The translations under genes and the position numbers were made by a program. From Rhodanobacter sp. B05 (GTDB lineage Bacteria > Pseudomonadota > Gammaproteobacteria > Xanthomonadales > Rhodanobacteraceae), in contig NZ_MUNU01000004.1 of NCBI RefSeq assembly GCF_002001085.1, forward strand, positions 62,001-126,000: a stretch of DNA of 64,000 bases, written 5' to 3'. Position 1 is the stretch's first letter. The number at the start of each line of letters is the position of its first letter. Positions 13,108 through 17,629 of the stretch are shown one piece after another. The notes under the pieces are model-generated. The model did no database searches. It saw only the letters and a program-made list of their open reading frames with translations, and had not been told where the DNA came from.

Positions 13108-13527
13108 TCAGCCCAGGTCGCCGAGCGCCTTGGTGAAGCGGTTCGCGTGCGAGCGCTCCGCCTTGGCCAGGGTCTCGAACCAGTCGGCGATTTCCTCGAA
13201 GCCTTCCTCGCGCGCGGCTTTCATCATTCCCGGATACATGTCGGTGTACTCGTGGGTTTCGCCGGCAATGGCGCTTTTCAGATTCAGGTGGGTTTCGCCA
13301 AACGGCAATCCGGTGGCGGGGTCGCCGACCGCTTCCAGGTATTCGAGATGGCCGTGCGCATGGCCGGTCTCGCCCTCGGCGGTGGAACGGAACACGGCCG
13401 AAACATCGTTGTAGCCTTCGACGTCGGCCTTGCCGGCGAAGTAGAGGTAGCGCCGGTTGGCCATCGATTCGCCGGCAAAGGCGTCCTTCAGGTTCTGCTC
13501 GGTTTTGGATCCTTTCAACTTGCTCAT
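13108..13527 (-). CDS. rubrerythrin family diiron protein
   Basis: 139-residue four-helix diiron protein that reduces H2O2 with electrons from a redox partner. The four metal-binding helices are recognisable: [45 protein letters not shown] and [16 protein letters not shown], supplying the expected Glu and His ligands. It lacks the C-terminal rubredoxin FeS4 domain, so electrons must come from another protein, plausibly the Fe-S protein encoded next. The first gene of a three-gene operon; a predicted OxyR site lies about 96 bp upstream of its start, which fits peroxide induction. Confidence 0.9.
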
Positions 13528-13622: not shown

Positions 13623-13659
13623 ATTGACTGTTTCGATGGAGTACATAGCCTCCGGCTAT
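13623..13659. promoter_or_regulatory. predicted OxyR binding site upstream of the rubrerythrin operon
   Basis: ATTG-N7-CGAT-N7-ATAG-N7-CTAT, 14 of 16 core positions matching the OxyR tetramer pattern ATAG-N7-CTAT-N7-ATAG-N7-CTAT with exact spacing. It sits between the oxyR stop codon (overlapping its first base at 13659) and the rubrerythrin ATG at 13527. The inner T/A positions of the E. coli consensus are not all kept. Confidence 0.6.
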
Positions 13660-14627
13660 CAGTGCACGCGTGCGTGCTTCGTCGGAATGCTCTTCGCTGC
13701 CGGCATCGGGGTGGCCGCGGGGTGTGCGTCGAGCAGTTCGGGCGGCAGTTGCCGCAGCACCCCGGCCAGGCGCTTCAGGAACTCGTCCATCGCCGAGCTC
13801 TTGCGCCAGACCATGGCGATGCGCCGGCTCGGCGGATGGCCCTTGAATTCGATCAGGTGCAGGCCGTCCACGGGCGCTACCGGCGGCTTCACCGCCATCA
13901 CCGGCAGCAGGGTGATGCCGACGTTCGCGGCCACCATCTGGCGCAGCGTCTCCAGGCTGGTCGCGCGGAAGCCGCCGTGTTCGCCGGCGCCCGACAGGTG
14001 GCAGACCTCCAGCGCCTGGTCGCGCAGGCAGTGGCCATCCTCCAGCAGCAGCAGGTTCTGGTTGGACAGGTCGCGCAGCTTGAGCAGGCCCTGCTTGTGC
14101 GCCAGCGGATGTACGTCGGAAACGGCAAGCAGGAACGGTTCCTCGAACAGGAACTCGCTGTGCATGCTGTCCTCGTGCAGGGGCAGGGCGAGGATGCCGG
14201 CATCAAGCCGGCCTTCGCGCAGCAGGCGCAGGAGCGCTTCGGTTTTCTCCTCGACCAGCAGCAGTTCAAGCTTCGGAAACGCGGCCCGCACCAGTGGCAA
14301 CGCATGCGGCAGCAAATAGGGCCCCAGGGTCGGGAAGATGCCCAGCCGCACCGTGCCGGATTCCGGGTCCAGCGTGCGCCGGGCCACCGCGCGGATCTGC
14401 TCGACGCCGCCGAGCACGTCGCGTGCGCGGATCGCGATGTCGCGGCCCACCTCGGTCAGCAGCACTTTGCGCGGCGTGCGTTCGACCAGCGGCACGCCGA
14501 GTTCCTCCTCCAGCTTCTTGATCTGGGTGGACAAGGTCGGCTGGCTGACGAAGCAGGCTTCGGCTGCGCGGCCGAAATGCCGGTGCTCAGCCAGGGCCAC
14601 CAGATATTGGAGATCGCGCAGGTTCAT
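13659..14627 (-). CDS. oxyR: LysR-type hydrogen peroxide sensor OxyR
   Basis: 322-residue LysR-family regulator. The N-terminal winged HTH is standard (MNLRDLQYLVALAEHRHFGRAA, FVSQPTLSTQIKKLEEELG). The effector domain has the redox-switch motif EDGHCLRDQALEVC with Cys200 and Cys209, equivalent to E. coli Cys199 and Cys208, which identifies OxyR rather than a generic LysR protein. The ATG at 14627 is chosen on family alignment; 14654 is an in-frame alternative that would overlap the operator. Sites resembling OxyR operators flank the gene on both sides, pointing to autoregulation and control of the rubrerythrin operon. Confidence 0.93.
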   Translation of the reverse strand: MNLRDLQYLVALAEHRHFGRAAEACFVSQPTLSTQIKKLEEELGVPLVERTPRKVLLTEVGRDIAIRARDVLGGVEQIRAVARRTLDPESGTVRLGIFPTLGPYLLPHALPLVRAAFPKLELLLVEEKTEALLRLLREGRLDAGILALPLHEDSMHSEFLFEEPFLLAVSDVHPLAHKQGLLKLRDLSNQNLLLLEDGHCLRDQALEVCHLSGAGEHGGFRATSLETLRQMVAANVGITLLPVMAVKPPVAPVDGLHLIEFKGHPPSRRIAMVWRKSSAMDEFLKRLAGVLRQLPPELLDAHPAATPMPAAKSIPTKHARVH

Positions 14628-14646
14628 CGGCGAGTCCGTCCAGGCA

Positions 14647-14683
14647 ATAGTCAAAAACTATGGTGCTGATGCCAACAATCAAT
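14647..14683. promoter_or_regulatory. predicted OxyR operator in the oxyR divergent region
   Basis: ATAG-N7-CTAT-N7-ATGC-N7-CAAT: the first half-site is perfect in its core and the second has five of eight positions, with exact 7-bp spacing. It is 19 bp from the oxyR ATG, a usual position for OxyR autorepression and activation of a divergent promoter. TTGGAA (14683-14688) and TATCGT (14707-14712), 18 bp apart, could be the divergent promoter. Confidence 0.6.
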
Positions 14684-14718
14684 TGGAACAATACACCGGC
14701 GCGCCCTATCGTGCACCG

Positions 14719-14822
14719 CGTATCCCCGTGATACCCCGCGCGTCGGAGCCCCTCCCTCTCCCCCGCAGACGCGCGGGTTGCACCCCACCGGCGCGAGCCT
14801 GTCCTCGTCGCCGGTTTTTTTT
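14719..14822 (+). ncRNA. candidate OxyS-like small RNA divergent from oxyR
   Basis: Inferred transcript of about 104 nt. It would start near 14719, downstream of the predicted OxyR-site promoter (TTGGAA / TATCGT), and end at a strong intrinsic terminator (14788-14822). No open reading frame with family resemblance lies in it. Position, divergent orientation and size match E. coli OxyS (109 nt), but there is no demonstrated sequence homology. The alternative is a long leader with an attenuator for the downstream aminopeptidase gene. Confidence 0.4.
14788..14822 (+). terminator. strong intrinsic terminator between oxyR and the aminopeptidase gene
   Basis: Stem CCGGCGCGAG (14788-14797) pairs with CTCG-T-CGCCGG (14804-14814) with a single bulged T around the loop CCTGTC, followed directly by eight T residues. 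On the plus strand no annotated gene ends here, so it terminates an unannotated transcript or acts as an attenuator. Confidence 0.85.
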
Positions 14823-14926
14823 GCGCGCGGCCACATCCCTGGCAAGCCGGCCGTGCCTTCTGGCACTGTGTCGAAAGTCATGCGGATCCTACGGTGGTGC
14901 TCTTTGGATCGCCTGGGGGTCTCCTG

Positions 14927-17629
14927 ATGCATCGTCTTGTCCGTCCGCTCCTGTTCACTGCGCTGGCCAGTTGCTGCGCCGCTGCGTTTGGTAATGCCAC
15001 CGACCACGCGCCGCAGGGTCGCCTGCCCGGCTGGGCGGTACCGCAGTCGTACCGGATCGCGTTCAAGGTCGATCCCGCCCGGCAGGATTTTTCCGGCACC
15101 ACCACGATCAAGGTCAAGCTGACCAAGGCTTCCGATCACCTCTGGCTGGACGGCAAGGAGCTGAAGGTGTCGAAGGTGACGATCACCGACGCCGCCGGCA
15201 AGCTGCATGACGGCGAATACGTCGACGTCGACCCCGCGGCCGGCGTGGTGCGGGTGGATTTCGGCAGTACGCTCCAGCCGCAGGAATTGAGCCTGAAGTT
15301 CGAATACAGCGCACCGCTGAATGCGCAGTTGCAGGGCCTGTACAAGGTCAGCGCCAGGGGCCAGCCGTATGCGATGACGCAGATGGAGCCGATCAGTGCG
15401 CGCTATGCGTTCCCCGGCTTCGACGAGCCCGGCTTCAAGACCCCGTTCGACATCAGCCTGACCATTCCGAGCAGCGAGGTCGGCATCGCCAATACCAGCC
15501 AGGTGAGCGACACGCCTGCCGGCCAGGGCTGGAAGACGCTGACCTTCGCGCAAACCTTGCCGCTGCCGACCTACCTGGTCGCCTTCGGCGTCGGTCCGTG
15601 GAGCATCGCCAACGCGCCGGACATCGCGCCGGATGCCTATCGTTCGAAACCGCTGCCGCTGCGCGGCGTGGCACCCGCCGGCCAGGCCCATCGCATGCAG
15701 CATGTGCTGAGCGAGACGCCGAGCATCATTCATGCGCTGGAGAACTACTACGGGTTCGGCTATCCGTGGGACAAGCTCGATCTGCTCGCCGCGCCGGATT
15801 TCTCCGCCGGCGCGATGGAGAACGCCGGCCTGGTCACGTTCCGCGACTGGCTGCTGCTGCTCGACAAGGATTCCCCCGCGCGCAACGTGCGCGGATCGTT
15901 CAACGTCACAGCGCATGAGTTGGCGCATCAGTGGACCGGCGACACGGTGACGCTCGAATGGTGGAACGACATCTGGCTCAACGAGGCGTTCGCCACCTGG
16001 ATGCAGCAGAAGGTCACCATGGAAGTGCATCCCGAATACCGCGCCGACCTTGATCGCGTGCGCGGTTCGGAAGGGGCGATGAACAGCGATGGGCTGGTCA
16101 GCGCGCGCAGCATCCGCCAGCCGATCACTGGCAACGGCGACATCCTCACCGCGTTCGACGGCATCACCTACCAGAAGGGTGCCGGCGTGATCGCGATGTT
16201 CGAGAACTATGTCGGCGACAAGACCTTCCAGAAGGGCATGCGTGCCTATATCCAGGCGCACAAGTTCGGCAACGCCACCGCCAGCGACCTGGTCGGTGCG
16301 ATCGCCACCGCGGCGGGCAAGGGCGAGGCGTTCAAGCATGCCTTCAACAGCTTCCTCGACCAGAGCGGCGTGCCGTATGTGCAGACGAAGCTGGTGCAGA
16401 AAGACGGCAAGACCGTGCTGCAGCTGAGCCAGAGCCGTTACCTGCCGCTGGGCAGCAAGGGCGATGCAAAACGCAGCTGGGGTGTGCCGGTGTGCGTGCG
16501 CTACGGCACGACCGCCAACGGCAAAGACAAAGCACAGTACAGCAAGGTCGCCTGCGAGATGCTCGACAAGGCCAGCGGCTCGATGGTGCTGGCCGGCGCC
16601 AGCACGCCGACCTGGATCATGCCCAACGCGAATGCCAGCGGCTATTACCGCTTCAGCCTGGACAAGCCGCAACTGGTCCGGCTCACCGCCGAGGTCGGCA
16701 AGCTCGGCGACGCCGAACAACTGGCCTATGCCGACGCCGTCGGTGCCAGCTTCCGTCGCGGCGATCTCGATGCCGGCGATGTGCTCGCCGCCTTCAAGCC
16801 GCTGACCGCGTCGAAGGTTCGCGACGTGGCCACCGCGCCACTGGGCCAGCTGGAATGGATCCATCAGCACGAGGCGCGCACCGATGCGCAGCGTGCCCGC
16901 CTCACTGCGTGGGTGAAGGATGCCTACCTGCCGCGCCTGCAACAGCTCGGCTACCAGCGCAAGGCTGGCGAATCCGAGGACGACTCGCTGTTGCGCAGCA
17001 CCCTGGCCAGTGCGCTCGCCTTCGATTTCAAGGTGCCCGAAGTACGCGCTGCCCTGCTCGAACAGGGTGAGGCGGTACTCAAGCCCACCGCCGATGGCAG
17101 CCTCGACTTCGCCGCTGCCGATCCCGACCTGCTCGGCGATGCGCTGGGCGTGGCGGTGCAGACGCAGGGAAAGCCCGCGGTCGATGCGTTGATCGGCGCG
17201 TTGCCGAAGACCACGGATGCGGCCTTGCGCAATGGCATCCTCGGCGGACTCGCCCGCGTGGAAGTTCCGACGCTGGCCACGCAGGTGCGCGACTTCGCGC
17301 TGGACAAGCAGGTCAAGGTCGGCGAGATGGGTTCGCTGCTGATGGGCGGTCGCGAGACCCGGGCGAGTCGTGATGCGATGTGGCAGTGGTTCACCGGCCA
17401 CTACAAGGAAGTGCTCGGCCGTACCGGCAGCTTCGCGGGTGGTTATCTGCCGCGCCTGGCCGCTGGCGGCGGTTGCTCCACACCCGAAGTCGAGCGGCTG
17501 CAGGCGTTCTTCAAGCCGCGCATGAACGATGCGGCAGGCATCGCGCGCGGACTCGCGCAGACGGGTGAATCAATCCAGCTGTGCGCGGCCTTGAAAGGGG
17601 CGCAGGATCCCGCAGCCATCCTGAAATAA
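14927..17629 (+). CDS. M1 family zinc aminopeptidase, exported
   Basis: 900-residue metallopeptidase (gluzincin, M1 family) that removes N-terminal residues from peptides. A signal peptide (HRLVRPLLFTALASCCAAAFG) suggests a periplasmic or envelope location, unlike cytoplasmic PepN. The N-terminal beta domain is followed by the exopeptidase motif GAMENAG (near residue 296) and the zinc site HELAHQW (near residue 330) with the third ligand in NEAFATW about 19 residues later. The C-terminal half is the ERAP1_C-like helical domain. The start is taken at 14927 after a GGGGG tract; an earlier ATG at 14894 would put residues before the signal peptide. Confidence 0.93.
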   Translation: MHRLVRPLLFTALASCCAAAFGNATDHAPQGRLPGWAVPQSYRIAFKVDPARQDFSGTTTIKVKLTKASDHLWLDGKELKVSKVTITDAAGKLHDGEYVDVDPAAGVVRVDFGSTLQPQELSLKFEYSAPLNAQLQGLYKVSARGQPYAMTQMEPISARYAFPGFDEPGFKTPFDISLTIPSSEVGIANTSQVSDTPAGQGWKTLTFAQTLPLPTYLVAFGVGPWSIANAPDIAPDAYRSKPLPLRGVAPAGQAHRMQHVLSETPSIIHALENYYGFGYPWDKLDLLAAPDFSAGAMENAGLVTFRDWLLLLDKDSPARNVRGSFNVTAHELAHQWTGDTVTLEWWNDIWLNEAFATWMQQKVTMEVHPEYRADLDRVRGSEGAMNSDGLVSARSIRQPITGNGDILTAFDGITYQKGAGVIAMFENYVGDKTFQKGMRAYIQAHKFGNATASDLVGAIATAAGKGEAFKHAFNSFLDQSGVPYVQTKLVQKDGKTVLQLSQSRYLPLGSKGDAKRSWGVPVCVRYGTTANGKDKAQYSKVACEMLDKASGSMVLAGASTPTWIMPNANASGYYRFSLDKPQLVRLTAEVGKLGDAEQLAYADAVGASFRRGDLDAGDVLAAFKPLTASKVRDVATAPLGQLEWIHQHEARTDAQRARLTAWVKDAYLPRLQQLGYQRKAGESEDDSLLRSTLASALAFDFKVPEVRAALLEQGEAVLKPTADGSLDFAAADPDLLGDALGVAVQTQGKPAVDALIGALPKTTDAALRNGILGGLARVEVPTLATQVRDFALDKQVKVGEMGSLLMGGRETRASRDAMWQWFTGHYKEVLGRTGSFAGGYLPRLAAGGGCSTPEVERLQAFFKPRMNDAAGIARGLAQTGESIQLCAALKGAQDPAAILK

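Follow-up and report, generated by a model that had tools for sequence, protein, structure and literature searches.

What is transcribed from the gap that separates the peroxide regulator gene oxyR from the aminopeptidase gene pepN in Rhodanobacter sp. B05, and how did it come to lie there? The locus was considered within a window of 64 kb, that is the whole stretch of DNA analysed (64,000 nucleotides). For this gap, a first-pass annotation had inferred an OxyR-induced RNA of about 100 nt on the strand opposite to oxyR, with an OxyR box at its promoter, a prediction that survives comparison across relatives. It appears fairly probable that the gap encodes an OxyR-activated RNA, non-coding and about 100 nt long, which stops at an intrinsic terminator, acts in trans through a C-rich loop and was left in place after the loss of ahpC and ahpD.

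Organisation of the oxyR-pepN gap

From left to right, the locus of Rhodanobacter sp. B05 holds oxyR on the minus strand, an OxyR box, a divergent promoter, two hairpins with a run of eight T, and pepN on the plus strand (Table 1). As read from the sequence, the OxyR translation retains the cysteine pair C-LRDQALEV-C of the peroxide regulator. The OxyR locus nearest to that of the window belongs to a MAG (93%), followed by those of Rhodanobacter strains and, interspersed with these, that of one Dyella strain. As first described, no plus-strand gene ends upstream of the terminator: oxyR occupies the opposite strand and the plus-strand ORFs found there are antisense to it.

Table 1. Coordinates of the features of the oxyR-pepN locus in the window
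Feature	Position	Strand	Basis
oxyR, LysR-type peroxide regulator	13659..14627	-	NCBIfam best match OxyR NF008361, 317 bits, slightly below the cut-off of 329
OxyR box, 4-7-4-7-4-7-4 spacing, 13/16 core bases	14647..14683		Sequence reading and shuffle test
Divergent promoter: -35 TTGGAA 14683-14688, 18-bp spacer, -10 TATCGT 14707-14712	14683..14712	+	Hexamers and recurrence in relatives
Predicted small RNA, ~100-104 nt (5' end placed from the -10, 3' end from the T-tract)	14719..14822	+	R1 match 14732-14822, 86.6 bits; folding z -5.2
Hairpin 1: stem CCCGCGCGTC/GACGCGCGGG, 23-nt loop, C/U run 14749-14764	14735..14777	+	Covariation and loop conservation
Hairpin 2: intrinsic terminator and T8	14787..14822	+	Covariation
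Separate conserved block before pepN, probably its promoter region (GCCTTCTGGCACTG...)	14855..14898	+	Identity 0.82
pepN-type M1 aminopeptidase, next gene, outside the RNA unit	14927..17629	+	NCBIfam aminopeptidase N models, below cut-offs

Regarding the regulatory site, the 37-bp OxyR box reads ATAG-N7-CTAT-N7-ATGC-N7-CAAT, with the ATG of oxyR at 14627 on the minus strand. Re-reading confirmed the exact spacing, the core bases and the distance of 19 bp from the oxyR ATG that had been attributed to it, and two OxyR-type sites with at most three mismatches were found in the 64-kb window versus 0.01 expected from dinucleotide shuffles. This arrangement conforms to that of OxyR-activated promoters, in which the box abuts the -35 element. 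The promoter-like pair TTGGAA/TATCGT previously noticed on the strand opposite to oxyR is present as well, and like hexamers recur at an equal distance from the box in relatives. A simple sigma-70 scan left the divergent promoter (14683-14712) unflagged and a simple terminator scan did not list the hairpin at 14787-14822, probably because of a bulged T in its stem; the evidence for both elements is their conservation.

The box together with a correctly placed promoter pattern was recovered in 29/34 RNA-only rows, 39/42 rows with ahpC and the RNA and 7/8 rows with ahpC only, as against 1/36 rows with neither, a class that includes Xanthomonas and Stenotrophomonas, where there is no divergent ahpC or RNA. 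Since this pattern occurs in 29/34 RNA-only rows and in none of the 13 'neither' rows having pepN downstream, the divergent promoter seems to be retained only where something remains to be transcribed, as far as such patterns indicate. In one MAG (L173), the box-bearing divergent partner of oxyR resembles the catalase-peroxidase gene katG, as judged by eye from the DNA, and replaces ahpC or the RNA.

The second OxyR-type box of the window (13623-13659, 14/16 core bases) lies about 95 bp upstream of a rubrerythrin gene on the minus strand (13108-13527). On this rubrerythrin side, a box with at most four mismatches is present in 40 of the 41 rows tested, window included, so that rubrerythrin is probably an OxyR target, judging from the recurrence of the site.

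Structure and covariation of the predicted RNA

With a folding energy of -45.8 kcal/mol (z = -5.2), the predicted RNA (14719-14822) is more stable than any of 200 shuffles; it comprises two stable stem-loops, of which one is C-rich. Hairpin 1, absent from the first-pass annotation, has a 10-bp GC stem (14735-14744/14768-14777) closing a 23-nt C-rich loop whose C/U run is CCCCUCCCUCUCCCCC. The GC stem followed by eight T that had been noticed earlier corresponds to hairpin 2 (ACCGGCG-CGAG/CTCG-(T)-CGCCGGT, 14787-14815, with the eight T at 14815-14822); it is present, albeit with one bulged T, and conserved in relatives.

In the clade of the window, 22 RNA-only loci were compared. Mean identity is high in the stem arms (0.87/0.88), the T-tract (0.90), the box (0.81, measured on 14645-14681) and the promoter (0.71); it is moderate in the loop (0.71), at 0.59 in the linker and at 0.67 in the stem-loop of the terminator, and falls to 0.49, 0.44 and 0.32 in the spacers.

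A comparison of the region across relatives had been proposed, and it shows that the stem and the terminator are kept with compensatory changes. In the alignment of 66 matches (A2), which was fitted to the covariance model and thus leans towards structure, 96.9% of cells pair and both sides have changed in 16/20 pairs, namely 7/9 stem pairs of hairpin 1 and 9/11 of hairpin 2, a level reached in 0/500 shuffles; sliding the pairing partners in this alignment destroyed the covariation signal. Both-side changes were also found in 11/20 pairs of a free MAFFT alignment of 20 sequences, and again in 11/20 pairs (47 cells) when the 31 RNA-only loci were taken alone. For the alignments of 20, 66 and 31 sequences alike, none of 500 shuffles equalled the number of both-side changes, whether counted by pairs or by cells.

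While stem bases vary, a C/U run of at least nine with CTCC/CCTC is found in the loop of all but four of the 67 best matches (63/67). Among these four, G215 and G220 (the latter judged to be L146 of the OxyR tree) are close relatives of the window by OxyR and have a degraded loop with no such run. In Dokdonella and Vulcaniibacterium, a hairpin with a similar loop follows ahpC, with a model score of just 18 to 21 bits. In two Rhodanobacter MAGs (L160 and L161), another hairpin (CGGGCCCGTCAGC...GCTGACGGGCC) occupies the ahpC-ahpD gap instead of the C-rich one.

Distribution of the RNA

R1, a covariance model that describes both hairpins and was built from 20 sequences, was searched against 233 genomes of the family, one per species and many of them drafts; 90 matched at E <= 0.01 and 67 at E <= 6.2e-7, with the reservation that the E-values of R1 and of the model R2 used at the order level are rough. 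All 67 places at E <= 6.2e-7 have oxyR within the fetched stretch. Down to an E-value of 5.0e-4, 79 of the 80 places listed were examined, a second place in G180 being left out, and oxyR adjoins 69 of them; the ten places away from oxyR were taken as chance matches or other terminators. Two weak matches away from oxyR (L129 and L132, from G166 and G138) consist of a hairpin with a CCCCCTCCCTCC loop and a terminator near a pirin-like ORF, as judged by eye, and are possibly another RNA with a C-rich loop. With R2, 47 of 398 genomes of the order matched at E <= 0.001, of which 46 belong to the same family. The sole match outside it (G451, E 2.5e-4) shows no oxyR, ahpC, ahpD or pepN in the 5.1 kb fetched and was taken as chance, and the weakest match within the family (G170) is not near oxyR. 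The window's own genome contains one clear copy of the RNA, five further matches all having E >= 3.3.

Loss of the terminator in close relatives had been regarded beforehand as evidence against the RNA. The element is kept in 36 of the 45 genomes of the genus (R1, E <= 2.1e-7), but 9/45 yield no model match. As the latter comprise 6 of 30 ahpC-less and 3 of 15 ahpC-bearing genomes, some lineages can do without the RNA. The six ahpC-less cases, like the plain hairpin of Dyella flava described below, speak against full selection of the RNA-only unit.

Relation to ahpC and ahpD

A DNA search of 197 genomes of the family returned, for three members of the same genus (G126, G189 and G195), matches split into two pieces, the oxyR end and the terminator, several hundred bases apart. 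The two pieces are separated by ahpC, while ahpD lies on the far side of the element (NCBIfam: AhpC below the cut-off, AhpD above it). Two gene orders can thus be distinguished: order (a), found in many relatives, reads oxyR, ahpC, RNA and ahpD, often followed by pepN, with ahpC divergent from oxyR; order (b), that of the window, reads oxyR, RNA and pepN. Where ahpC is present, the element forms its 3' UTR and terminator in the same orientation, a correspondence that the first-pass annotation did not contain, whereas the window has no ahpC. In such a context, the element probably ends the ahpC mRNA and limits read-through into ahpD.

Within the genus, 15/45 genomes have an ahpC of at least 88% identity; in the other 30, including the window's, there are only relatives of 36-40%, none exceeding 40% identity to the ahpC of the locus. 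The RNA is kept in 24 of these 30 genomes without a close ahpC and in 12 of the 15 with one. As for ahpD, the window's whole genome yielded no relative beyond one short weak match, while in other genomes its presence was scored at the locus only.

The history of the locus was approached with an OxyR tree of 120 rows, kept after removing proteins shorter than 240 aa and duplicates; the tree comes from a quick search and from one gene at the locus itself. Its labels were partly set by hand: all G-rows were counted as RNA-positive since they had been found by the model, five positives of the script (L199, L209, L213, L224 and L160) were reset to negative, and L190, though weak, was kept as RNA-positive and dropped in the AU test. 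On this tree, the RNA-only state needs eight changes, of which at least three are forced by well supported branches. A single clade of the 33 RNA-only rows is rejected (AU p 3e-48), in a test run after inspection of the tree and directed against a single clade, not against a single loss followed by regain. A clade with ahpC and the RNA (C03, L36, C05 and S184) falls with weak support within the RNA-only group, a placement that could reflect regain by recombination or tree error.

The RNA-only rows do not form one OxyR clade, and several losses would be the simplest reading of their scattered state. One loss, then regain or further loss, could also produce it; under regain, both ahpC and ahpD would have had to re-enter at exactly their former positions. 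Luteibacter, Dokdonella and Vulcaniibacterium share context (a), from which we infer that it would be the ancestral arrangement. Taken together as one scenario, to which we give slightly less than an even chance, the RNA would have arisen as the ahpC 3' UTR and been freed when its two neighbours, ahpC and ahpD, were lost, probably on several occasions, inheriting each time the OxyR-controlled ahpC promoter; it would then be a convergent analogue of OxyS, produced by the deletion of an enzyme gene from within its transcription unit, in which the RNA was kept instead of the enzyme.

Alternative explanations for the conserved element

Rather than acting on other transcripts, the element could be a relic terminator or insulator that, after ahpC loss, stops OxyR-driven transcription from reaching pepN, the RNA itself being inert in trans. 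Its position suits this role, between the OxyR promoter and pepN here and, as a terminator, between ahpC and ahpD in the ahpC genomes; besides, the 'neither' locus of Dyella flava (L166), without ahpC or RNA, retains a plain terminator-like hairpin devoid of a C-rich loop. Hairpin 1 and its C-rich loop would nevertheless be superfluous for insulation, yet they are kept in most loci, and the lack of any divergent promoter pattern in the 13 pepN loci with neither ahpC nor RNA suggests that losing the promoter is an alternative to insulating it. Insulation as the sole function is thus considered unlikely, though it fares best among the alternatives.

An RNA that binds protein instead of pairing with mRNA, either by titrating CsrA/RsmA through a GGAG at the loop edge or by binding a protein to the C-rich loop, would fit the presence of GGAG at the 5' edge of all 18 loops measured among the RNA-only loci of the window's clade. 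The motif is however missing in G215 of the same clade, in L048-L051 (genus g19) and in most sequences of genus g11 (Luteibacter-type), groups in which the C/U run is retained, and this mode of action is held to be improbable.

Still less credible is a cis-acting leader or attenuator of pepN, although this gene has the same orientation and starts 104 bp beyond the T-tract. In other genera, the RNA is followed by ahpD, and the spacer between the terminator and the block that precedes pepN is the least conserved part of the region (0.32), as opposed to 0.82 for the block itself (14855-14898) over the 22 RNA-only loci. The motif of this block accompanies pepN in 73 of 77 rows and in all contexts, i.e. 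31/31 RNA-only, 27/29 with ahpC and the RNA, 3/4 with ahpC only and 12/13 with neither; as pepN thus has its own conserved upstream block, a leader role is disfavoured. The block is probably the promoter of pepN or a regulator site; it contains a near-palindrome, GTGCCTTCTGGCAC, also seen in genomes with other contexts. Finally, a small protein gene, for which one could invoke an uninterrupted plus-strand frame that spans the element and might start at a GTG at 14728, can practically be set aside, as loop length varies between close relatives from 22 to 28 nt and not in threes (18/22 loci measured) and conservation tracks base pairs.

Proposed mode of action and candidate targets

For a trans-acting, OxyR-activated RNA, the following sequence of events can be proposed. 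In the lineage of the window, ahpC and ahpD would have been lost on either side of the element, leaving the old ahpC promoter to drive the RNA alone. Upon oxidation by peroxide, OxyR bound at 14647-14683 would, considering the layout, recruit the polymerase to the adjoining promoter and the RNA would accumulate. By analogy with sX13 and GsrN, the C/U-rich loop of hairpin 1 may then pair with G-rich or Shine-Dalgarno stretches of mRNAs and alter their translation.

The genome of the window shows no enrichment of the exact loop complement, with 22 sites, one of which is the antisense of the RNA itself, versus 44 for the reversed control, and the search for it revealed no target mRNA there. Several of the other 21 sites (L244, L248, L252 and L256) lie ahead of what may be the start codon of a longer ORF. 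The most convincing by eye, located before a GMP-synthase-like ORF (L252), was discarded as part of a repeated CCCTCTCCC...GGGAGAGGG palindrome. Of note, a repeated palindrome CCCTCTCCC...GGGAGAGGGAGC occurs at several places in this genome (L237, L238, L239, L245, L251 and L252), one copy being right before the GMP-synthase-like start codon, as judged by eye. The targets of sX13 have only four-G motifs in common, which would not suffice for a blind search.

If the proposed history is true, the locus would offer a natural case of the birth of a free-standing stress sRNA, in which the coding sequence vanishes and a 3' UTR is left with the promoter and terminator that once flanked it. It would also represent a second, unrelated solution to the enterobacterial design of OxyR plus a divergent RNA, with a simple mode of action, that is a C-rich loop directed against G-rich mRNA starts. 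As species pairs with and without ahpC are at hand, the idea that the RNA outlives the gene is directly testable.

Comparison with known systems

The OxyS RNA of E. coli (Rfam RF00035) is about 100 nt long, is transcribed divergently from oxyR with an OxyR box at its promoter, and is made up of hairpins and a terminator. The RNA predicted here shares its approximate length, its divergence from oxyR, the box at the promoter and the succession of hairpins and terminator. Unlike OxyS, it has no match to the OxyS covariance model, presents one C-rich hairpin loop, corresponds to the ahpC 3' UTR of relatives, and occurs in the family to which Rhodanobacter, Dyella and Luteibacter belong. The earlier view of an OxyS analogue without sequence homology to OxyS is in keeping with the Rfam searches: no match reached the gathering level in the 64-kb window, and OxyS was absent from the three matches obtained at E <= 10 on 14600-14900, namely anti-hemB (E 2.2), BcKCsr2 (E 8.7) and sR32 (E 3.4), which are all at chance level. 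No report of this oxyR-linked RNA was found in the open-licence PMC literature.

As to the loop, the sX13 RNA of Xanthomonas has GC stems topped by C-rich loops, through which it represses, independently of Hfq, mRNAs that carry a G-rich motif close to their start codon (PMC3771888); the words oxyR and oxidative do not occur in the main text of that study. The present RNA likewise has a stable GC stem and a conserved apical C-rich loop (63/67 keep the run), but displays two stem-loops, one of them C-rich, where sX13 has three stems with C-rich loops, and it has no Rfam match. A C-rich loop is also the point in common with GsrN of Caulobacter, which activates katG by base-pairing with its G-rich 5' leader and thereby improves survival under peroxide (PMC5869019); GsrN is tied to the sigma-T stress response, in other bacteria, whereas an OxyR box precedes the RNA considered here. 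In Xanthomonas campestris, many sRNAs are excised from mRNAs, some from 3' UTRs, according to PMC7694677, in whose text neither ahpC nor oxyR occurs. The element resembles such mRNA-derived sRNAs in forming an mRNA 3' end in the ahpC genomes, and differs from them in that the host gene is missing in the window and the RNA has its own predicted promoter. By analogy with these systems, the best reading is that of an RNA that would be OxyS-like in position and likely control and sX13-like in its loop, while being a member of neither.
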